DNA from: a virus
IMG/VR virus record: IMGVR_UViG_3300042889_001503
Location: 62,001-126,000 of that record
Direction: 5' to 3' (one strand)
DNA: 64,000 nucleotides
The notes beneath the pieces were generated by a model, which saw only the letters and a program-made list of their open reading frames with translations, made no database searches and had not been told where the DNA came from. How positions within the stretch are numbered: position 1 is the stretch's first letter; each line of letters begins with the position of its first letter. A program made the position numbers and the translations under genes. Below, piece by piece: positions 5,149-34,134 of this stretch.

Positions 5149-6216
5149 ATGTCAAATACAATAACGATACAAAGTATAAATTATAGTGGGGAGGTTGCAA
5201 ATATTTTGTTTAAACCTAACGGTGTTAATGTGGTTATAAATTTAGGTAATCAAATATTACCTTATGTGTTTAATCCGTCATTATTAACACCACCTCGTAA
5301 TGTATATGGTGTTTACACTATATTAGTTGAGGGGGCGGATTGTCCTGTTATTATGAATGTTCCGGTTCCTACTCCTACACCAACACCAACACCGACTGTT
5401 ACAAACACTCAAACACCGACAGCTACACCAACACTAACCCCAACTCCTTCTTTCAACCCTTGTAAAGTTCCTACACAAACACCAACAACCACCACTACAC
5501 CAACTACCACACCGACCCCAACAATAACACCTACGGAGACTTGTACGAACCCATGTGGATGTTACGCCCCAATACCACCAACACCAACACAAACACCAAC
5601 CAATACACACACTCCGACAAATACACCAACACCAACATTAACACCAACTCCGGTATATTATGCTAAGTTATTTATTGAACCTGTAAGTGGGTCTGAAAGT
5701 ATTGGTCAATGGATGTATGATAGTGGTTCTAATTTCTTTGGTTTTACAAACAATACACAACCAACACAAGACCAAACACAATTTAATATTGATATGAACA
5801 AATATGTTGATTTCAGTGGTTGGACTAGTGGTGAGTTCCCACCAATAATTAGTCAAACGGTTCCTCAAATTTCAGGAGGGCTCGATAGTTTTGGTAACCC
5901 AATAGTTGCCTATAATTTCTTAACAACCGAAGTGTTGCAAGGTTATGTTGGTGGTTTAGGGTGGTATATTTGGATTATCCCAATTTCATTAACTAATAAT
6001 GGAAGACAAACAATTATTGATTTTAATGAAAGTAATGATTCTAATTTATTAACAAATATATATACTGAAGATGCAATTAACACATATACATTTACCTACA
6101 CCGGAACAACAATTCCACAAACAACATACCGAGTTTATACAACATATCCTAACATAATATTTAACATTACCGATAACAATAATATTTATTTTAGAGGTAA
6201 TACCATAACACAATAA
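5149..6216 (+). CDS. Pro-Thr-rich fibre-associated protein
   Basis: This 355-residue protein begins 14 nt after the preceding fibre gene. It has a small beta-rich N-terminal domain (residues 1-75) ending in an NVPVPTP transition, then about 90 residues of Pro-Thr-rich linker with a short Cys-containing interruption, then a C-terminal domain of about 190 residues I do not recognise. The N-terminal domain resembles that of the gene at 19274 (pattern NLG-x-Q-x-x-P, then YG-x-Y, then NVP-x-P), so it may be a shared virion-anchoring unit. The next gene starts 1 nt downstream, so translation is probably coupled. A structural role is inferred from composition and neighbours only. Confidence 0.6.
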   Translation: MSNTITIQSINYSGEVANILFKPNGVNVVINLGNQILPYVFNPSLLTPPRNVYGVYTILVEGADCPVIMNVPVPTPTPTPTPTVTNTQTPTATPTLTPTPSFNPCKVPTQTPTTTTTPTTTPTPTITPTETCTNPCGCYAPIPPTPTQTPTNTHTPTNTPTPTLTPTPVYYAKLFIEPVSGSESIGQWMYDSGSNFFGFTNNTQPTQDQTQFNIDMNKYVDFSGWTSGEFPPIISQTVPQISGGLDSFGNPIVAYNFLTTEVLQGYVGGLGWYIWIIPISLTNNGRQTIIDFNESNDSNLLTNIYTEDAINTYTFTYTGTTIPQTTYRVYTTYPNIIFNITDNNNIYFRGNTITQ

Positions 6217-13469: not shown

Positions 13470-14717
13470 ATGAAGATATTTGTCCAAATTGCGTCCTATC
13501 GTGACCCCCAACTTATCCCAACAATTAAATCAATGTTGGAGAATGCAAAGAAACCTAAAAATTTAGTAATCGGTATTTGTCGTCAATATCATCCGGAAGA
13601 TGGTTTTGATAATTTATCAGAATTCAAAGGTGATAAACGTTTTAGAGTTATTGATGTTCTATACACCGAATCCAAAGGGGTTTGTTGGGCAAGAAACCAA
13701 GTTCAACAACTATATAAAGGTGAAGAATATACCTTACAAATCGATTCTCATATGAGATTTGAAAAAGATTGGGACGACACCCTAATCAAAATGGTTAAAC
13801 AACTTCAAAAGAAAGGATTTAAGAAACCTTTACTAACAGGTTATGTTTCTTCATTCGACCCGGACAATGACCCGGCAAGTAGAGTTAAAGAACCTTGGAG
13901 AATGGCTTTTGATAGATTTATACCGGAAGGTGCCGTCTTCTTTTTACCTGAAACAATTCCGGGGTGGGAAAATCTTAAAGAACCCGTTACCTCAAGATTT
14001 TACTCCGCCCATATGGCATTTACATTGGGACAATTTAGTGTCGAGGTTCAACACGACCCTGAATTCTATTTCCACGGAGAAGAAATCTCAATCGCTGTTA
14101 GAGCATTTACACACGGATACGATTTATTTCACCCACACAAAACTGTTATTTGGCACGAATATACTCGTAAGGGTAGAACCAAACAATGGGATGATGATAA
14201 AGAGTGGGGTAAGAAAAATGAATTATCTCATAAAAAGAATCGTCAACTATTTGGTATGGACGGTGAAGACGTTACAATGGACTTTAGTTTTTACGGGTTC
14301 GGAACTGAAAGAACTTTAAAAGATTATGAAATTTATTCAGGTCTTAAATTTTCAAATAGAGCTGTTCAACAATATACTTTAGATAAAAATTACGCACCTA
14401 ATCCTCAAATATTTGAAACTGAGGAAGAATGGTTGGCAAGTTACGCTAGTATCTTTAAACATTGTATCGACATTGGATTTTCTCAAGTTCCTGAAAAAGA
14501 TTACGAATTTTGGGTTGTTGCTTTCCACGATGAAAAAGATGAAACACTTTTTAGAAAAGATGCTGATATCAATGAGATTAATAATATGATGAGAGACCCT
14601 GATGGGTATTGTAAAGTTTGGAGAGATTTCCAAACTGTTCATAAACCAAAATACTGGGTTGTTTGGCCGTTTAGTAAGTCAAAAGGTTGGTGTGAAAGAA
14701 TAACAGGTAATTTGTAA
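13470..14717 (+). CDS. GlcNAc-transferase-family glycosyltransferase
   Basis: This 415-residue protein opens with a GT-A-like strand (MKIFVQIASYRDPQL) and carries the signatures I associate with the PF11397 'GlcNAc' family: a SKGVCWARN segment (residues 68-76) and LQIDSHMRF (residues 89-97), where Asp92 and His94 are the likely metal/sugar-nucleotide site. Characterised relatives include the Dictyostelium enzyme that adds GlcNAc to hydroxyproline of Skp1. It is predicted cytoplasmic, with no signal or membrane segment. It is the first gene of a tightly packed glycosyltransferase run directly after the fibre genes, suggesting modification of virion proteins or of host surface glycans. Family assignment is fairly secure; substrate is unknown. 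Confidence 0.8.
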   Translation: MKIFVQIASYRDPQLIPTIKSMLENAKKPKNLVIGICRQYHPEDGFDNLSEFKGDKRFRVIDVLYTESKGVCWARNQVQQLYKGEEYTLQIDSHMRFEKDWDDTLIKMVKQLQKKGFKKPLLTGYVSSFDPDNDPASRVKEPWRMAFDRFIPEGAVFFLPETIPGWENLKEPVTSRFYSAHMAFTLGQFSVEVQHDPEFYFHGEEISIAVRAFTHGYDLFHPHKTVIWHEYTRKGRTKQWDDDKEWGKKNELSHKKNRQLFGMDGEDVTMDFSFYGFGTERTLKDYEIYSGLKFSNRAVQQYTLDKNYAPNPQIFETEEEWLASYASIFKHCIDIGFSQVPEKDYEFWVVAFHDEKDETLFRKDADINEINNMMRDPDGYCKVWRDFQTVHKPKYWVVWPFSKSKGWCERITGNL

Positions 14718-14721
14718 AAAT

Positions 14722-15429
14722 ATGGAATATGCGATAGCAACATTTTGTTATGGTGATAGATATTATGCCCAAACAAATAGAATGATAGAATCATTTAAAG
14801 AATTTGAAGATAAACCAAATATTTTCATAGTTACAGATAATCCGGAATCAATTACTAAAGAAGATTATGTATTTGTTTCACATATTAAGGAATATAATGA
14901 AAAATATGTGACATATAATACGAATTATTATGATTTTGATTTTTCAGTTAAAAGATTCTCAGTAAAATTTGCGTTAGATAGTGGATTTACTAAAGTAATT
15001 TTAACAGATACGGATGTTATACCAAACAAATCATTATTCACAAAAAAAAATGTGTTAGAGTGTTTTATACCTAATAGTGTTGCCGGTCAAGTAACCTATC
15101 TTTTTGAAAAAGAGGTTGAGACAAATAGTATGTTAGGAAGACGATACTTACATTATGAAAATAAATTTGACGTTCAATATAATAAAGTGGATATGTGGAT
15201 GCCGGAAGACTGCATTCAATTTTTAGATATTGATAAAGATAAATTTTATTCATTTTTAAAAACTTGGGATGAATGTATTGAGATTAAATATGTTGACAAT
15301 TTATATAATATACCTGCGGGTAATATAGATGAAATGTGTTTCTCAGCATTACATAACGGTGTTGACTTAAAAAACAATTCTAGCAAACACATAAACTTAT
15401 TAATCCCCAATCACGACAAATGGTATTAA
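14722..15429 (+). CDS. GT-A-type glycosyltransferase
   Basis: This 235-residue protein begins MEYAIATFCYG and has a hydrophobic strand ending in a DxD-like motif, ILTDTDVIPN (Asp96 and Asp98), preceded by the KRFSVKFALDSGF helix. This matches a compact nucleotide-sugar transferase fold (GT-A). It starts 4 nt after the previous gene and its last 10 bases overlap the next gene, consistent with translational coupling. No membrane segment is visible. Donor and acceptor are unknown. Confidence 0.65.
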   Translation: MEYAIATFCYGDRYYAQTNRMIESFKEFEDKPNIFIVTDNPESITKEDYVFVSHIKEYNEKYVTYNTNYYDFDFSVKRFSVKFALDSGFTKVILTDTDVIPNKSLFTKKNVLECFIPNSVAGQVTYLFEKEVETNSMLGRRYLHYENKFDVQYNKVDMWMPEDCIQFLDIDKDKFYSFLKTWDECIEIKYVDNLYNIPAGNIDEMCFSALHNGVDLKNNSSKHINLLIPNHDKWY

Positions 15430-16265
15430 AAATTATTACATCAGTTTATGAATTAAACTATGAAGATTCCAGAGGTGGTATGGTATATAAATCATATCCA
15501 TTATTAACCCAAACATTACGTAGTATAATTTTTGAAGGTTTTGAATATGTTATTTACACTAATCAATACACTTACGACAAATATCATTTAGGTGAACAAT
15601 TTAACCAACCAAATGTAACCATAAAGTTTCACGAATTAAATTCTGAAAATTACCTAAACAACATAAACCCAATTAGATTAGTTAAATTTGCCGAAGGGGA
15701 AATTTACGATAGAATTTATTGTGTTAAAAATTATGTAGAAGTTATTTTTAATAAGTTACAATTTTTACTCGATGAGTGTGAAGATAATAAAAATGTTGTG
15801 TGGATTGATTCCGGACTTTTTGGAACTAGTTGTCACGATAGATGGAGAGATTACATTAATGTTTTTGCCCATTCAGAATTATTTTTAAATAAAATAAATG
15901 AAAAAATATCTGAGAATGGTTTTATTTGTTTAAGAGGAGAATCAATTCAGGTTAATTACGAATTAAAAGCAGTTCTTGTTAATATGTTTAACACAGACTT
16001 TAAGTTAGTTCCCGGAGGTATGTTTGGAGGGACAAGTGAGTCTATTCAAAAAGTTTTATCTAATTACTTATCGATTTTTGAAACATATTACACAACAACA
16101 GGTAAATTAATTAGTGAACAAGAGGTTTTATCTATATTAACTCACACAAATGACGTTAAATTTTTTAATTTTGGTGATTGGTTAGATTTACAAAGAGGGA
16201 TATTGGACCTTATGGATTTATTGGATGTCGACAAATATAAAATTGATGAGAAATATGATGTCTAA
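15420..16265 (+). CDS. HtrL/YibB-like glycosyltransferase-fold protein
   Basis: This 281-residue protein has a GT-A-like architecture: an N-terminal ITSVYE strand, a central VVWIDSGLFG motif (around residues 126-135), and a later GGMFGG plus SEQEVLSIL segment. WIDSG followed by GG-x-FGG and EQ-x-x-x-x-x-L also occurs in the HtrL/YibB-like half of the gene at 16821, so the two are paralogous. The start overlaps the previous gene by 10 nt and the end overlaps the next. HtrL/YibB members are linked to cell-surface polysaccharide synthesis in bacteria; the phage substrate is unknown. Confidence 0.6.
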   Translation: MVLKIITSVYELNYEDSRGGMVYKSYPLLTQTLRSIIFEGFEYVIYTNQYTYDKYHLGEQFNQPNVTIKFHELNSENYLNNINPIRLVKFAEGEIYDRIYCVKNYVEVIFNKLQFLLDECEDNKNVVWIDSGLFGTSCHDRWRDYINVFAHSELFLNKINEKISENGFICLRGESIQVNYELKAVLVNMFNTDFKLVPGGMFGGTSESIQKVLSNYLSIFETYYTTTGKLISEQEVLSILTHTNDVKFFNFGDWLDLQRGILDLMDLLDVDKYKIDEKYDV

Positions 16266-16824
16266 CTATTCTTTTAACATTGTTTGCACAACTATTGGAA
16301 GAGAATCATTACCAAGATTGATTGATAGTTTTAAAAATCAGTTAACCCAAAACGATTCTTTTACCATAATATCCGATACAAATCACGAGTTTGTTCAAAA
16401 TGTTTTATCTAATTATGATGTTAATTTTAAATTAAATCACATTATAAATGATGGGGATAGATTAGGTAAGTTTGGACACCCTTTATTAAACAAACACATT
16501 AATAACCTTGACGGTGATTTTATTATGTTTGCGGACGACGATGATTATTATGTTGATGATGCCTTTGAGTATATAAGGGAAGTCGTTACAGAAAAAAAAC
16601 TATACATTTTTAAACATAAATGGGGAGGAACAATTAATTGGACGACAAAAGAAGTAACACTAGGGAATATTGGTAAATGTATGGGTGTCATTCCTAATAC
16701 TAAAAATTTACCAATGTTTCAAGAAGACGTATTCGGGGATGGGTTATTTTACGAAGACTTATCCAAAATTATGGAATATGAATTTGTTGATAAAATAATA
16801 TATAAAATTAGAGATACAATATGA
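16258..16824 (+). CDS. GT2-like glycosyltransferase
   Basis: A protein of about 188 residues. I place the start at the ATG at 16258 (or 16255), giving MSNYSFNIVCTTIGRESL, because the 10 residues upstream look non-native and the GT2-type first strand begins here. The motif IMFADDDDYYVDDAF supplies the GT2 aspartates that bind metal and nucleotide-sugar. At under 200 residues it is a minimal GT-A catalytic domain. The stop overlaps the next start as ATGA. No transmembrane helix is present. Confidence 0.7.
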   Translation: MSNYSFNIVCTTIGRESLPRLIDSFKNQLTQNDSFTIISDTNHEFVQNVLSNYDVNFKLNHIINDGDRLGKFGHPLLNKHINNLDGDFIMFADDDDYYVDDAFEYIREVVTEKKLYIFKHKWGGTINWTTKEVTLGNIGKCMGVIPNTKNLPMFQEDVFGDGLFYEDLSKIMEYEFVDKIIYKIRDTI

Positions 16825-18494
16825 GTAAAGTAACATTAGTGACAGGATTATGGGATATAGGTAGAGGAGACCTTCAAGAGGGTTGGTCTCGTTCATTCCA
16901 ACATTATTTAGATAAATTTCAACAACTATTACAAGTTGATGTGAATATGATTATTTTTGGTGACGAAGAGTTAGAGAAATTTGTGTCAAACAATAGACGA
17001 AGTGAAAACACACAATTTGTTCGTAGAAGTTTGTCTTGGTTTAAAGACAACGATTTTTTTGATAAAATACAAAATATAAGAACAAATCCGGATTGGTATA
17101 ATCAAGTCGGATGGTTAACCGATTCAACTCAAGCTAAATTAGAGATGTATAACCCGTTGGTTATGTCAAAAATTTATCTCCTACACGATGCTAAAATTTT
17201 AGATAGGTTTAATTCAGAATATATGTTTTGGATTGACGCTGGGTTAACAAATACAATTCACCCGGGATATTTTACACACGATAAGGTTTTAGATAAATTA
17301 CCTCAATTAGTTAAAAATTTTCATTTTGTTTGTTTCCCTTATGAAACTAATTCTGAAATCCACGGATTTAAATATCCTGAATTATGTGAATTAGCCGGAG
17401 AACCAGTTAAAATGGTTGCTCGAGCAGGTTTCTTCGGAGGAAGAAAAGATGTTATATCAGATATTAACGGTATCTATTACGGGTTAATGAATGATACATT
17501 ATCACAAGGGTTAATGGGAACTGAAGAATCGTTATTTACAATTATGACATACAAATACCCTGAGTTGATTAGTTATTCAGAAATAGAAGATAATGGATTA
17601 ATGGGTAAATTTTTTGAGGACTTAAAAAATAACACGACTCAAGTTAAAGAAAGTGTTTTACCAATTAAACCGAATAGTTTAGACACATCCAAAGTTGGAT
17701 TGTATGTTATAGCATTTAACTCACCTAAACAATTTGAGGTATTAATCCAATCTATGTTAGATTATGATTCTGACTTTATTGATAAACCAAAAAAATTCTT
17801 ATTAGATAACTCAACCGATTTATCAACAACACCAAGATATCTTGAACTATGTGAACAATATGGTTTTGAACATATTAAAAAAGACAACATTGGTATTGTC
17901 GGGGGGAGAGTGTTTGTTGCTGAACATTTTGATGAAACTGATTTAGATTGTTATTGGTGGTTTGAAGACGATATGGCTTTTTATCCAAAAAAAGGTGAGG
18001 TATGTAGAAATGGGTTCCCTCGTTTTGTTGATAAATTATATCAAAAATCAGTAGAGATTGTTAAAAAAGAAAATTTTGATTTTCTTAAATTAAATTTTAG
18101 TGAATTTTTTGGTGATAATAGTGTTCAATGGAGTTGGTATAATGTCCCTCAAGATTTTAGACAATCTCATTGGCCGAATAACCCTAAATTACCGGTTCAA
18201 GGACTAGACCCTAATTCACCTAAAACACAATTTAAGGAGATAAGGACATATAAAGGGTTATCATATGCGACAGGGGAAGTTTATTTATGTAATTGGCCGA
18301 TAATATTAACAAGAGAAGGTAACTATAAGTGTTATTTAGAAACAAAATGGGCTCACCCATTTGAACAGACGTTAATGTCTTATTGTTATCAAGAAACTGT
18401 TAAAGGAAAAATTAATCCGGGATTATTGTTATTAACACCAACGGAACACGATAGATTTGAACATTATGACGGTTCATTAAGAAAAGAAAGTTAA
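16821..18494 (+). CDS. Two-domain HtrL/YibB plus GT-A glycosyltransferase
   Basis: This 557-residue protein appears to be a fusion. Residues 1 to about 270 start VTLVTGLWDIGRGDLQEGW, the classic HtrL/YibB opening, with a WIDAGLTNT motif and GFFGG later. Residues about 285-557 form a second GT-A-like domain beginning VGLYVIAFNSPKQFEVL, with the WWFEDDMAF acidic motif near residue 385. It is the last gene of the run and ends 16 nt before a TATTTATA element. The two active-site-like motifs suggest addition of two sugars or dual specificity. Phage-encoded virion or receptor glycosylation is the inferred role. Confidence 0.7.
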   Translation: MSKVTLVTGLWDIGRGDLQEGWSRSFQHYLDKFQQLLQVDVNMIIFGDEELEKFVSNNRRSENTQFVRRSLSWFKDNDFFDKIQNIRTNPDWYNQVGWLTDSTQAKLEMYNPLVMSKIYLLHDAKILDRFNSEYMFWIDAGLTNTIHPGYFTHDKVLDKLPQLVKNFHFVCFPYETNSEIHGFKYPELCELAGEPVKMVARAGFFGGRKDVISDINGIYYGLMNDTLSQGLMGTEESLFTIMTYKYPELISYSEIEDNGLMGKFFEDLKNNTTQVKESVLPIKPNSLDTSKVGLYVIAFNSPKQFEVLIQSMLDYDSDFIDKPKKFLLDNSTDLSTTPRYLELCEQYGFEHIKKDNIGIVGGRVFVAEHFDETDLDCYWWFEDDMAFYPKKGEVCRNGFPRFVDKLYQKSVEIVKKENFDFLKLNFSEFFGDNSVQWSWYNVPQDFRQSHWPNNPKLPVQGLDPNSPKTQFKEIRTYKGLSYATGEVYLCNWPIILTREGNYKCYLETKWAHPFEQTLMSYCYQETVKGKINPGLLLLTPTEHDRFEHYDGSLRKES

Positions 18495-18530: not shown

Positions 18531-19217
18531 ATGGAATTTTTTATAAAGAAAAACGCAACCTTACCTCTTCTTAAACTTCAAGTAGTAAAAGATGGTAGAA
18601 GTGATTACAATAATTTTATGGAATTATTGGAATCCTCAACCATATTCTTTTCTATGGTTAATTCTGAGACAGGTATTCCAAAAATAACTTCAAGACCAGC
18701 GGGGTTTGTTGAAAAAATATTTGACGACCCCAATGCAGAACCTGAATATTATATTTACTATCAATTTACCAAACAAGACACGAGTGTTGAGGGTAGAAAT
18801 GAAGGACAATTTTTAATAAAGACATCTGACGGTAATATAATATTACCAATTAGGGAAAAACTAAACATATATATTCAAGAGTCATTTATTGCTGACGATT
18901 TAGAATATGATACTTGCTACACATCAGTTTATCCTTGTTGTGTATCACATTCTGTTATACCACAACCACCATCACTTGTATATTTTAATTATGAATTAAT
19001 TAAAGACAAAGATTTTATTTATAAAACAATCCCTAATAATAATTTAGATGACGATGTTATACCAAATAACGATATTATAACGAGTAATATTCCTGACAAT
19101 AATTTAGGTGATGACATCATACCAAATAACAATATTATAACAAATAGTATTCCTGATAATAATTTAGGTGATGATATAATCCCAAATAATGATATTATAT
19201 CAAACATTTTACTTTAA
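18531..19217 (+). CDS. Putative baseplate/fibre protein with C-terminal 20-residue repeats
   Basis: This 228-residue protein has a beta-rich N-terminal domain (MEFFIKKNATLPLLKLQVV) that loosely resembles N-terminal domains of upper-baseplate or fibre-attachment proteins, followed by a Cys-containing centre (CYTSVYPCC). The C-terminus is three tandem 20-residue units around IPDNNLGDDIIPNN (bases about 19029-19205), spaced exactly 60 bp in DNA. The unit is acidic and Asn-rich. I do not recognise the whole protein; a virion role is inferred from its place between fibre-related genes. Confidence 0.55.
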   Translation: MEFFIKKNATLPLLKLQVVKDGRSDYNNFMELLESSTIFFSMVNSETGIPKITSRPAGFVEKIFDDPNAEPEYYIYYQFTKQDTSVEGRNEGQFLIKTSDGNIILPIREKLNIYIQESFIADDLEYDTCYTSVYPCCVSHSVIPQPPSLVYFNYELIKDKDFIYKTIPNNNLDDDVIPNNDIITSNIPDNNLGDDIIPNNNIITNSIPDNNLGDDIIPNNDIISNILL

Positions 19218-19236: not shown

Positions 19237-19244
19237 ATTTATAA
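19237..19244 (+). promoter_or_regulatory. TATTTATA element
   Basis: Copy of the recurrent element (TATTTATAAATAAA), 29 nt before the ATG at 19274, followed by a long A-rich leader with no Shine-Dalgarno sequence. Confidence 0.4.
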
Positions 19245-19273
19245 ATAAATAAAAAAAAACAAAAAAAATAATT

Positions 19274-20347
19274 ATGTCAATAGGTTTAAGAATTATCAGT
19301 AATAATTTAATAGGTAAAACCGCGTCTGTTACCTTTACTCCAGCATCCGGAGGGACACCACAAAATTTAGGTATTCAGACAATACCATTTAATAATATTA
19401 CACCATATCCATATGGTAATTATGATATTAATGTTTTAGAATATAACTATAGTTACAATTTTAATGTGCCGGCGCCGGCTCCATTACAATCAGGTTATAC
19501 AACTACCCTTAGAGGTATTGTTAATCCGGAAGGTGGTTTAGCATATTCTTCGTCAACGTTATCGGAATCTTGGGGTGAGTATACAAAAGGATTTATTACT
19601 AGTAAAGGTTATTCCCCTGATGATATTATTTACGCCGAAGGTATATGTTCTGATGATGTTGATGGTCCCGTATTTACAGGTGTTGATAATATTGGACAAT
19701 TTCCAACTTCTATGAACACATTTCTTGGTCCGTTTATGTCAGGTGGTTTAGCAGGGTTCCCATTTGTTGGAACTGTTGGGTTAGGTGCTTGGGCTAGCCA
19801 CATTACAAGTGGCGGAACTTTATTTATAACAAGTACACCTCATATTGGTGTAACAATAGATGGTCGTGCGGGAAGAATGTTAAGAAAAGGTAAACCAGAT
19901 AGTATCACAGATAATACTTGTGGAGCTGTGGCGGGAGCCATAGGTGAGGTATTAACAACTTGGAGTGCTACCACACCAACATTTAGTACTTATTCAGGTT
20001 CAGGAGATTATGAATTTTATAAGTTAGTTGATATCTTATGGCCGTTTCGTGGTACATTATCAGGATTTACGGGAACATCGGAAGAAATATATAATAAACA
20101 AATGATTTTTTCAACAAATAAAATTAAAGAAAACGCATTTACTTATTTATTTGCTAATTTATCGGGAGCAACAAATAGTGTGTTATTATCAAGACCTTCT
20201 ACTGAGATATTTTTCACTAGTGGTGTTTTTATTAATACAGATTATGGATATGAATCATACGTTAATATCGACCAATTTTGGAAATATAGTATTAACGGTG
20301 GTTGGGTTGACCTAACATCAGAATATGTTTCAGGATTACCATTATAA
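19274..20347 (+). CDS. LCIB-type carbonic-anhydrase-fold protein with virion-type N-terminal domain
   Basis: This 357-residue protein has a 70-residue N-terminal domain like that of the gene at 5149, ending NVPAPAP, then a region strongly reminiscent of the LCIB/C beta-carbonic anhydrase family (PF18599). Features in order: ICSDDVD (Cys125, Asp127), GGLAGFPFVGTVGLGAWASH (157-176), TPHIGV (His190) and NTCGAVAGA (Cys216). The Cys-His-Cys order and spacing (65 then 26 residues) agree with the family's zinc ligands as I recall them. The Arg that pairs with the catalytic Asp in active members is not at the expected C-x-D-x-R position (Val129), so activity is uncertain. No signal peptide is visible. 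It precedes a strong terminator. An alternative is an inactive structural relative. Confidence 0.65.
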   Translation: MSIGLRIISNNLIGKTASVTFTPASGGTPQNLGIQTIPFNNITPYPYGNYDINVLEYNYSYNFNVPAPAPLQSGYTTTLRGIVNPEGGLAYSSSTLSESWGEYTKGFITSKGYSPDDIIYAEGICSDDVDGPVFTGVDNIGQFPTSMNTFLGPFMSGGLAGFPFVGTVGLGAWASHITSGGTLFITSTPHIGVTIDGRAGRMLRKGKPDSITDNTCGAVAGAIGEVLTTWSATTPTFSTYSGSGDYEFYKLVDILWPFRGTLSGFTGTSEEIYNKQMIFSTNKIKENAFTYLFANLSGATNSVLLSRPSTEIFFTSGVFINTDYGYESYVNIDQFWKYSINGGWVDLTSEYVSGLPL

Positions 20348-20350
20348 AAC

Positions 20351-20377
20351 AAAAAGACCTTCGGGTCTTTTTTTTTT
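20351..20377 (+). terminator. Rho-independent terminator
   Basis: AAAAGACC, TTCG tetraloop, GGTCTTTT, then a run of T. It lies 3 nt after the LCIB-like gene and separates it from the DNA polymerase promoter. Confidence 0.9.
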
Positions 20378-30510: not shown

Positions 30511-30540
30511 TATAAATAAAATTATAAACAAAACAAACTA

Positions 30541-33500
30541 ATGGCAACAAACAGCAAAGTATTCGTATCTCCCGGGGTATATACTTCCGAAGTTGATTTA
30601 AGTTTCGTAGCACAAAGTGTGGGGGTAACCACATTAGGTATTGTTGGTGAAACACAAAAAGGACCAGCATTCGAACCTATCTTTATACGAAATTTCGATG
30701 AATTCTCAACTTTTTTTGGAGGAACATCCCCTGAAAAGTTTATTAATACACAAATACCGAAGTATGAAGCTTCGTATATCGCAAAATCTTATTTACAACA
30801 ATCAAATCAATTGTTTGTTACAAGAATTTTGGGATTGTCAGGATATGACGCGGGACCATCTTGGTCTTTTAGAACGATAGCGAATGTTGATAAAACAACA
30901 GTTGATTTTGACTGTTCAGGTAGTACATATGATTTTACATCATGTGAATCTATATGTACAGGATATACGGAATATTCATTCACATTACCGTTTACCGGAT
31001 GTAATAATGATATAAGTTCAGTTGTCTTTGGTGCATTTACAGGTGATGAATCGATAATAACAAATAAATTTAATGAAACTTATGAAAATTTTAACGGAAC
31101 ATCGTCAACAATAATTTCAGATTTCCAACAACAAGTTTTCAATGTTATTGTTTCCTCAACAACTTTATCAACTTCAGCAACCTCATTATACTGTTATGGT
31201 ACAATATTAGGTGATGATTACGATAATTTAGTTTCAATAGGTTATACAAACGTAACAAACGTATTCGACGTAAACAATGTTGATTCACATTTAGCTGATT
31301 ATACTGCTCCAGAGAATGACCCTTGGTATTACGCATTATTTGATAATAATAATGGTAGTTATACAGGTAGTTCTTACTATACGGTAATCGATACTCTTGG
31401 ACAAAGTTCTACATCATCAAATTGTTCATCTTTCTATTCATTTAGTGTTCTTGGTGTTGCAGGAAGTATTAATTACAATAACAGCACAATTAGTGTTGTT
31501 TTACCTTTTGCGACTTTTTCAGGAACAAATTTATCAACTATTGTTCCAACGTTTAGTGCTTGTTGTACAGGTGTAACGGTAAATTTATCAGCACAAACTA
31601 GTAATGTATCGGTTGTTAATTTTTCAACAGGTGCTGTTACATATCTTTTAATACCTAACGATGGTAGTTCAACAGGAACATCTTTTAACGTAACCGTTGA
31701 AATACAAAATCCTTGTAACCCACTAACATCAGGTAATACTGGAAACTATACTTCAGGTTCAATTAAAACTTGTTATACGGGTAGTGTTAGAGGTTCTGTT
31801 TATGTTTATACAGGAACATCTTATACAGACTTTGACGATTTAATTCTTGCAACACTTCGTTCAAGAGGTATTGCGACTTATGGTGCGGGTAGTGATGGAC
31901 CAACTTATCAAGTAAATGATGTGACCGATGTAACAATGAATTGTACAGGTGGATACTCAAGTATTGGTAAAAATCCTTATTCTGAATTTGGTTTAAACAT
32001 AACTGATAAGGATAATAATACATTTTTCTTTGAAACCTCATTTAGTGAGTCAGATTCTAAATATTTACCAAAAGTATTTGGTTCTTCAAACTTTGCAAAA
32101 CCAAGAACTACGGTTCCATTATTTGTAGAAGAGAGATTTCAAACATTATTAAACTATGGTTATAATAAAGGTTATATTAGAGGTATTAATTGTAATTTAG
32201 TTGGATTACCAAGAGCTAATAACAGTAATAACGATATGTCTTCGATAGCGTTTTATTTAGAAAAATACCAAACACCGTCTTCCCCTTGGGTTGTATCTGA
32301 ATTAAGAGGTAGTAAAGTATACAATCTATTCAGATTCACAACAGTTTCTGATGGTGATGACGCTAACACTGAGGTTAAAATTTCAATAGCAAATATGTCA
32401 TTTGGTAATTTAACTTTTGATATTTTAGTTAGAGATTTTTATGACACAGATAATAATCCTGTTGTTATTGAGAAATTCACAAATTGTTCGATGAATCCTC
32501 AGGATAATGCGTTTGTTGGACAAAAAATTGGTACTGCCGATGGAGAATACGCGTTGAACTCAAAATACATTATGGTTGAGATGAATGAGGACGCACCGAT
32601 TGATGCGTTACCTTGTGGTTTCCAAGGATTTAGATTTAGAAATTACGCAACTTCTAGACCACCGTTCCCAATTTATAAAACTAAATATGATTACCCTGGA
32701 GAGGTTGTATTTGACCCACCATTTGGATTAAGTTCAGGTTCTAACTTGGCAATCCAAAGTCCGGGCGATAATGTTCGTAGAACTTACTTAGGTATTTCTA
32801 CAGGATATGGTGCAGGATATGACCCTGATTTCTTCCAATATAAAGGTAAACAATTACCATTAGATTTATGTACAGCTGTGGAAGGGAATGATTGGACATA
32901 TAAAACAAGAGGATTCCATATGGATGTTAACGCATCATCAATTGTTTATCCGGGAACATCTAACCCAGAATTCTTTGTTGGTGACGCACCATTTACATCA
33001 GACCCTGATAGTGAAGTTAGTCCTTATTACAGAATTTATTCACGTAAATTCTCATTATTAGTTCAAGGAGGATTTGATGGTTGGGATATCTATAGAGAAT
33101 CTAGAACAAATACCGACACATTTAAATTAGGTAGAAGAGGTTACTTAAACGGGGCTTGTACAAGTATACAATATCCAACGGCAACAGGATGGGGAGCATT
33201 CAAGAAAATTACTGTTGGAAAAAATAATGTTGATTGGGCAAACACCGATTATTACGCTTACTTATTAGGACAACAAACATTCTCTAATCCTGAGGCGGTG
33301 AATATTAACTTATTTGTTACTCCGGGTATTGATTATGTTAATAATTCTGATTTAGTTGAAGATGCGATTGAGATGATTGAATTTAACAGAGCTGACTCAT
33401 TATACGTTTGTACAACACCGGATATTGATTTGTTTATGCCAACAGTAAACTTGGCAACTGATTTAATTTACCCTCAAGAGGCAATAAATAACTTAGAAAC

Positions 33501-34134
33501 TACAGGAGTCGACTCTAACTATACCGCAACATACTACCCTTGGGTATTAACAAGAGATAGTGTTAACAATACACAAATCTACTTACCACCAACGGCAGAA
33601 GTTGTTAGAAACTTAGCGTTAACCGACAACATCGCTTTCCCTTGGTTCGCGGCGGCAGGTTACACAAGAGGTATCGTAAACGCAATCAAAGCGAGAAAGA
33701 AACTTACTCAAGAAGATAGAGACACCCTTTACCAAGGACGTATCAATCCAATTGCAACTTTCTCTGATGTTGGGACGGTAATTTGGGGTAATAAAACACT
33801 ACAAGTGGCTCAATCGGCACTTGATAGAATAAACGTAAGAAGATTATTACTTCAAGCTCGTAAATTGATTTCAGCGGTATCTGTAAGATTATTGTTTGAA
33901 CAAAACGACCAAAAAGTAAGACAAGACTTCTTAGACGCGGTTAACCCTATCTTGGATGCTATCAGAAGAGACAGAGGTTTATATGATTTCCGAGTTACAG
34001 TATCGTCAGATACGGCTGATTTAGATAGAAATCAAATGACAGGTAAGATTTACATCAAACCAACCAAATCGTTAGAATTTATAGACATTACGTTCTATAT
34101 TACTCCAACAGGAGCTTCTTTCGAGAATATATAA
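30541..34134 (+). CDS. 18: Contractile tail sheath protein (gp18-like), enlarged
   Basis: This 1197-residue protein has a sheath-type N-terminus (VSPGVYTSEVDLS; IVGETQKGPAFEP) and the conserved sheath C-terminus (RRLLLQARKLISAVSVRLLFEQND, then LIEF/IDITFYITPTGASFENI-type end). T4 gp18 is 659 residues, so the middle (about residues 120-560) carries large Ser/Thr/Asn-rich insertions, probably decorating the tail surface. The LEQNDQ helix and final beta strands form the interlocking core. It forms the contractile outer tube that drives the inner tube into the host. Confidence 0.92.
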   Translation: MATNSKVFVSPGVYTSEVDLSFVAQSVGVTTLGIVGETQKGPAFEPIFIRNFDEFSTFFGGTSPEKFINTQIPKYEASYIAKSYLQQSNQLFVTRILGLSGYDAGPSWSFRTIANVDKTTVDFDCSGSTYDFTSCESICTGYTEYSFTLPFTGCNNDISSVVFGAFTGDESIITNKFNETYENFNGTSSTIISDFQQQVFNVIVSSTTLSTSATSLYCYGTILGDDYDNLVSIGYTNVTNVFDVNNVDSHLADYTAPENDPWYYALFDNNNGSYTGSSYYTVIDTLGQSSTSSNCSSFYSFSVLGVAGSINYNNSTISVVLPFATFSGTNLSTIVPTFSACCTGVTVNLSAQTSNVSVVNFSTGAVTYLLIPNDGSSTGTSFNVTVEIQNPCNPLTSGNTGNYTSGSIKTCYTGSVRGSVYVYTGTSYTDFDDLILATLRSRGIATYGAGSDGPTYQVNDVTDVTMNCTGGYSSIGKNPYSEFGLNITDKDNNTFFFETSFSESDSKYLPKVFGSSNFAKPRTTVPLFVEERFQTLLNYGYNKGYIRGINCNLVGLPRANNSNNDMSSIAFYLEKYQTPSSPWVVSELRGSKVYNLFRFTTVSDGDDANTEVKISIANMSFGNLTFDILVRDFYDTDNNPVVIEKFTNCSMNPQDNAFVGQKIGTADGEYALNSKYIMVEMNEDAPIDALPCGFQGFRFRNYATSRPPFPIYKTKYDYPGEVVFDPPFGLSSGSNLAIQSPGDNVRRTYLGISTGYGAGYDPDFFQYKGKQLPLDLCTAVEGNDWTYKTRGFHMDVNASSIVYPGTSNPEFFVGDAPFTSDPDSEVSPYYRIYSRKFSLLVQGGFDGWDIYRESRTNTDTFKLGRRGYLNGACTSIQYPTATGWGAFKKITVGKNNVDWANTDYYAYLLGQQTFSNPEAVNINLFVTPGIDYVNNSDLVEDAIEMIEFNRADSLYVCTTPDIDLFMPTVNLATDLIYPQEAINNLETTGVDSNYTATYYPWVLTRDSVNNTQIYLPPTAEVVRNLALTDNIAFPWFAAAGYTRGIVNAIKARKKLTQEDRDTLYQGRINPIATFSDVGTVIWGNKTLQVAQSALDRINVRRLLLQARKLISAVSVRLLFEQNDQKVRQDFLDAVNPILDAIRRDRGLYDFRVTVSSDTADLDRNQMTGKIYIKPTKSLEFIDITFYITPTGASFENI

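Follow-up and report, generated by a model that had tools for sequence, protein, structure and literature searches.

A gene of a large T4-like phage encodes a 357-aa protein that almost certainly belongs to the LCIB-type beta-carbonic anhydrases, and the best explanation of this protein, to which we assign a probability of about 0.55, is that it is late-expressed, particle-associated and catalytically intact, and would hold a working metal centre near the host envelope. LCIB proteins belong to the CO2-concentrating mechanisms of algae and are also found in bacteria. The family is known, and it is its setting in modular, apparently particle-associated phage proteins for which no report was found. 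The gene is located in the analyzed stretch of 64,000 nucleotides (hereafter, the window), which is a part of a 272-kb virus record and encodes a T4-type tail sheath, a tail tube, gp25, baseplate J-like proteins, a B-family DNA polymerase and a ribonucleotide reductase (NrdA/NrdB). The coordinates of the gene, its domains and the surrounding signals are summarized in Table 1.

The initial annotation of the gene had recognized the LCIB motifs from the letters alone, and they were found where it had placed them: C-x-D is followed by GGLAGFPFVG (residues 157-166), S175-H176, P189-H190-I-G and T-C216-G-A. The similarity to the family goes far beyond chance. The Pfam profile PF18599 (LCIB_C_CA) matched residues 99-332 with an E-value of 4.6e-27 and a score of 95.2 bits at a curated cut-off of 25 bits, and the nearest solved structures by sequence, as identified by phmmer, were 6kfs (E 1.2e-16) and PtLCIB4 from Phaeodactylum (E 6e-13). 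The same curated cut-off was exceeded by the proteins of the viral loci L044, L074, L083, L091 and L093 and by the products of the second genes of L091 and L093, while no match to the 357-aa protein was found in PHROGs. The AlphaFold2 model, for which an alignment of 57 relatives served as input, had a mean pLDDT of 84, and in the Foldseek comparison it matched PtLCIB4 (5b5y, E 4e-15) and 6kfs (E 6e-15) with TM-scores to target of 0.81-0.82, as well as the algal proteins LCIB (E 1e-8) and LCIC (E 5e-8); a fold unlike that of the LCIB family was not seen, in agreement with the proposed assignment. Comparison with near relatives revealed purifying selection on the gene, with dN of ~0.05, dS of ~0.5 and a dN/dS ratio of ~0.1.

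Table 1. Features of the LCIB-domain gene and its vicinity (positions in the window)
Feature	Position	Strand	Basis or remark
Fibre-cluster protein with an N-terminus weakly like the module of the LCIB protein	5149..6216	+	E 0.048
228-aa protein (MEFFIKKN...), upstream of the LCIB gene	18531..19217	+	Near LCIB in 27/67 viral loci; TATAAATA upstream
T4-late-promoter-like element TATAAATA within GATATTTATAAATA	19240..19247	+	34 bases before ATG
Gene for the 357-aa LCIB-domain protein	19274..20347	+	ORF open from ATG to TAA; PF18599 match; dN/dS
N-terminal beta-domain module, residues 1-71	19274..19486	+	Common to fibre-like/DUF285 repeat proteins of the same phage; strands at 3-65 in the model
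LCIB-type beta-carbonic anhydrase domain, residues 72-357 (Pfam match 99-332)	19487..20344	+	Profile, structures, model, Foldseek
C125-S126-D127, first metal-ligand Cys and catalytic Asp	19646..19654	+	C and D invariant; CSD also in PtLCIB4
NIGxFP insert, residues 139-144, between C-x-D and GGLAG	19688..19705	+	Virus-only in the alignment
H176, equivalent of PtLCIB4 His88	19799..19801	+	Alignment
H190, metal-ligand His	19841..19843	+	Alignment
R204, candidate dyad Arg	19883..19885	+	Inference; Arg of this region invariant in viruses and bacteria
C216, second metal-ligand Cys	19919..19921	+	Alignment
Terminator-like hairpin and T-run (AAAAGACC TTCG GGTCTTTT TTTTTT)	20352..20377	+	Directly past the stop codon; read from the sequence

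The likeness to PtLCIB4 (PDB 5b5y, 5b5z and 5b60) includes the fold, the CSD[DE]V stretch with Val at the last position of C-x-D-x-R, the GGLAGFPF motif, the His88 equivalent, the second-ligand His and Cys, and the RxG stretch, with ~34% identity over the aligned core; the phage protein differs in the addition of an N-terminal virion-type module and the NIGxFP insert, and in its setting, which is a phage structural region as opposed to the algal CO2-concentrating system of PtLCIB4. The His and Ser residues that were replaced in the H88A and S47R structures of PtLCIB4 correspond to H176 and S126, respectively. In the alignment of viral and bacterial proteins, C125, D127, H176, H190, R204, C216, G217 and N321 did not vary in any of the 44 viral or 44 bacterial sequences; the active-site residues were invariant in the 57-sequence alignment as well. 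The initial annotation had noticed Val at the position of the dyad Arg and had considered that the protein may be inactive. The Val of C-S-D-D-V is indeed present, but the inference of inactivity does not hold, since R204 and H176 are invariant, the same position is occupied by Val, Leu or Ile in bacterial LCIB proteins, and PtLCIB4, which also has Val (CSDEV), is described as constitutively active in a passage of PMC9614477 that cites the LCIB structure paper. As judged by these alignments, Val at this position is the family norm, and R204 is the likely partner of D127, i.e., the dyad Arg. Given the invariant residues and this norm, the viral LCIB proteins look like competent enzymes rather than decayed ones, and we are highly confident that the metal and active site of the viral domain is intact; Cys125, His190 and Cys216 would be close to each other, as judged only by the match to PtLCIB4. 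The virus-only insert is also conserved, with N139, G141 and P144 kept in 44/44 viral sequences and a gap in 44/44 bacterial ones, and the loop that spans it (residues 134-151) is the sole low-confidence part of the AlphaFold2 model.

Attachment of the LCIB domain to virion-type modules, as proposed in the initial annotation, was observed in three independent carrier arrangements. In the window phage, the N-terminal beta-domain module recurs in four other proteins of the same phage (G000, at 17030, 19449, 21666 and 21884; E 6e-5 to 1.4e-10), and a resemblance to the fibre-cluster protein at 5149-6216 of the window was recovered weakly (E about 0.05). The five other genomic copies of this module mostly start long fibre-like TPTPT/DUF285 repeat proteins near the terminase and portal genes; the best match of the module in BFVD was a 740-aa phage protein (78 columns), and the window-type module was found in 48 of the 67 viral LCIB loci. 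In L083 and L089, the LCIB domain is fused to a fibre-like N-terminus of ~60 residues, and residues 3-61 of the L083 protein are 83% identical to residues 4-62 encoded by a separate fibre-like gene of L084, which is located immediately upstream of the LCIB gene in that phage. In L044 and L045, the domain is a clean ~270-aa insertion in a structural-type protein of ~500 aa (776 vs ~500 aa), positioned between FDLILFRIP and NPQ[FY]WDEGVGYD. The ~500-aa carrier has no LCIB domain in 68 of its 70 five-prime-complete homologues, and the 495-aa homologue from the window phage itself (60% identical) is likewise without it, whereas the carrier of an incomplete third contig (L096/L160) also holds the domain.

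The ~500-aa carrier is encoded between the major capsid gene and a putative hub/spike gene, the latter label being a reading of the sequence without a family match. No Pfam or PHROG match was found for the carrier, and its model was poor (pLDDT 48), with ordered parts that in Foldseek were suggestive of BppU-N, minor-tail and neck-passage proteins, a likeness that comes from this low-confidence model; the carriers may be counted as structural by their neighbourhood only. Assignment of the carrier as a WD-repeat protein was set aside, since the weak profile match spans only 42 positions. The carrier family (L155:3644-5143; G000:38235-39683) is highly conserved and was present in 138 IMG/VR contigs without an isolate relative. 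Two further phage types have a tandem pair of LCIB genes (L093:4560-6626 and L091:4620-6675) and yet different N-termini; the first protein of each pair has a long unique N-terminus and the second is bare, and a hetero-oligomer of the two is possible. One of the module-bearing proteins, a 1040-aa TPTPT-repeat fibre-like protein (L030:11884-15006; G000:21884-25006), seems to have a Hint/intein-like domain at its C-terminal end (CLVVNTVITLSDGST...NNVLTHNK), although no Pfam match was found for it.

Swappable N-terminal anchors combined with varied C-terminal or inserted domains are characteristic of the receptor-binding and baseplate proteins of tailed phages, such as those with the BppU N-terminal domain; to our knowledge, no modular protein of this kind carries an LCIB domain. 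This resemblance of the module swapping and of the insertion into structural-type proteins to receptor-binding parts, together with the conserved virus-only insert between C-x-D and GGLAG, would also be expected of a virion adhesin, in which the LCIB fold is retained as a binding pocket, whose ligand could be a glycan, a carboxylate or a surface protein of the host, and catalysis plays no part. The fold of the vaccinia virus D8 protein is of the alpha class and unrelated to LCIB. As a virion adhesion protein with a carbonic-anhydrase fold, D8 is nevertheless a precedent for such an adhesin (PMC4256255); it binds chondroitin sulfate, whereas the phage domain is of the LCIB/beta class with the full metal site kept. 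A D8-type adhesin with an alpha-class fold was rejected on this basis, while an adhesin-like action may still apply. However, the greatest variation in an adhesin is expected near the face that binds, and some of the catalytic residues could be lost from it, whereas all metal and catalytic residues are invariant among viral proteins down to ~40-45% identity, as in cellular enzymes, and we regard the adhesin reading as unlikely, though with an appreciable chance of being correct.

An exact copy of TATAAATA, the T4 late consensus, precedes the LCIB gene, and a terminator-like hairpin follows it. The exact element was found within 80 bp upstream of 21 of the 52 viral LCIB genes, compared with ~4 expected from mononucleotide shuffles, these counts being non-independent since the sequences are related, and upstream of 1 of the 46 bacterial LCIB genes. 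The tail sheath gene has a similar element upstream, at 30511; such related elements also precede the neck gene and some further genes in the window, and are absent before most replication genes. The element before the LCIB gene is a putative T4-late-like promoter, from which the gene would be expressed late.

The neighbourhood of the gene varies among the phages. In the L083/L084-type phages, the LCIB gene is located between the neck (head-tail adaptor) and tail-sheath genes, while in the window-type phages its neighbours are fibre, glycosyltransferase and DNA polymerase genes; this mixture in the window, which is not confined to structural genes, speaks against a particle-associated enzyme, and so does the surrounding of the tandem LCIB genes of L091 and L093, where no structural gene was recognized. 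Five glycosyltransferase-like genes (PF11397 GlcNAc, HtrL_YibB and others) lie between the fibre genes and the LCIB gene at 13470-18494 of the window, and this run could glycosylate the fibres. The tail sheath (30541-34134) is unusually long at 1197 aa, with a strong match to known sheaths in its C-terminal third only and a large extra region. A protein of ~210 aa (L014:6334-6969, L022:6357-6977), which adjoins LCIB in 21 of the 67 loci, resembles a 2OG-Fe(II) oxygenase by eye, and neither Pfam nor PHROGs gave a match to it.

In total, scans of IMG/VR identified 67 contigs with the viral LCIB domain, and the bacterial homologues found were mostly from Bacteroidota and Balneolota. Motif patterns were used to collect both the viral and the bacterial sequences, and members at a greater distance may therefore have escaped. 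In the maximum-likelihood tree, all 45 viral sequences were placed on one side of a long branch with a support of 100/100, and the viral LCIB sequences thus appear as one strongly supported clade. No LCIB match was obtained by tblastn in 50,697 isolate phage records with three different viral LCIB queries, and no viral LCIB structure was found in BFVD at E 0.001. The initial annotation had regarded an LCIB protein associated with a phage tail as unreported, and this stands within the literature searched: queries for LCIB in phages or viruses and for carbonic anhydrase in phage virions or tail fibers returned nothing relevant. The PF18599 proteins of Bacteroidota and Balneolota (L101, L105, L109 and others) have the domain and the invariant active-site residues in common with the phage proteins but are bare proteins of 230-260 aa without the virion module, form a separate clade, and are encoded near genes of bicarbonate-transport or zinc-starvation type. 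In Flavobacterium daejeonense (L101:3128-7922), the LCIB gene is clustered with genes for PRA-CH (HisI), GTP cyclohydrolase I, PTPS/QueD, a COG0523-type CobW GTPase and dCTP deaminase. This cluster resembles the zinc-starvation (Zur) gene sets (compare PMC2770081), and the LCIB protein of this bacterium may be a back-up carbonic anhydrase under zinc scarcity. In a Balneolaceae genome (L105:3825-5609), the LCIB gene is divergent from the gene for an SbtA-type sodium/bicarbonate transporter (PF05982, E 2e-113).

These bacterial contexts, together with the intact active site and with the nucleotide-synthesis genes that are common in large phages and include NrdA/NrdB in the window, are what an intracellular auxiliary enzyme would predict, i.e., one that supplies bicarbonate or CO2 for nucleotide or fatty-acid synthesis and whose N-terminal modules are incidental. 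We consider this improbable, given the late-promoter-like element, the insertion of the domain in a structural-type protein and its fusion to a fibre N-terminus, the fibre, neck and sheath neighbours in place of metabolic genes, the single viral clade far from host genes, unlike a recent capture of a host gene, and the absence of psbA from the phage. Two narrower candidates were rejected: a host-derived auxiliary metabolic gene, in view of the long-branch single clade, the fusions to viral modules and the structural neighbours, and CO2 supply by a cyanophage to its photosynthetic host, in view of the record without psbA. It is very improbable that the LCIB domain only serves oligomerisation or spacing in the particle, with an active site that persists as part of the folding core: the domain does tolerate mounting on several carriers, but H176, D127 and R204 are invariant although they are catalytic rather than plausible core residues, and metal ligands are usually lost from proteins freed of selection for catalysis, as many pseudo-enzymes show.

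We therefore return to a particle-borne enzyme as the preferred reading. The gene product would be a late-expressed, particle-associated protein, in which an exchangeable virion module, in the window phage the small beta-domain common to its fibre-like proteins, bears a complete LCIB domain whose metal and active site are intact. The phage would display this domain, with its working metal centre, on the tail, neck or fibre apparatus, and the domain would act on the host envelope, or immediately within it, as the phage adsorbs or enters; the probable reaction is CO2 hydration/bicarbonate dehydration, or else a conversion of some related small ligand. Family membership, the intact site, purifying selection and the modular fusions to structural-type proteins are shown by the analysis, whereas we infer presence in the virion, catalytic activity and benefit to the phage with different confidence. 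The repeated re-mounting on three carrier arrangements, as observed for receptor-binding and tail-decorating domains, is strong but indirect evidence for a virion protein, and virion association is graded as quite probable from sequence comparison. Catalytic activity, predicted likewise, is rated somewhat lower, on the favourable side of even; carbonic anhydrase activity is its simplest assignment, given the complete site and the bacterial relative adjoining an SbtA-type bicarbonate transporter. The gain to the phage could be a local change in CO2/bicarbonate or pH at the envelope, or a pocket that recognizes a carboxylate-like ligand. A point against this reading is that the advantage of a particle-borne carbonic anhydrase is not obvious, given that the reaction proceeds fairly fast without a catalyst and that hosts usually have such enzymes of their own. 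In the most complete version of this reading, a lineage of large T4-like phages has on its virions an active beta-carbonic anhydrase that is exchanged as a module of the tail, neck or fibre, has a virus-specific insert in its active site, aids infection by CO2/bicarbonate or local pH chemistry at the envelope and would be the first particle-borne carbonic anhydrase in phages; taken as a whole, it is tentative and has a less than even chance.

The virions of the window phage and of dozens of its uncultivated relatives probably bear an enzyme for CO2 handling, or a binding protein derived from such an enzyme. A strictly conserved and apparently competent LCIB domain as a modular part of particle proteins in dozens of uncultivated T4-like phages would point to an unfamiliar chemistry or recognition as infection begins, and would widen the cargo of phage tails beyond the enzymes that degrade polysaccharides and peptidoglycan.
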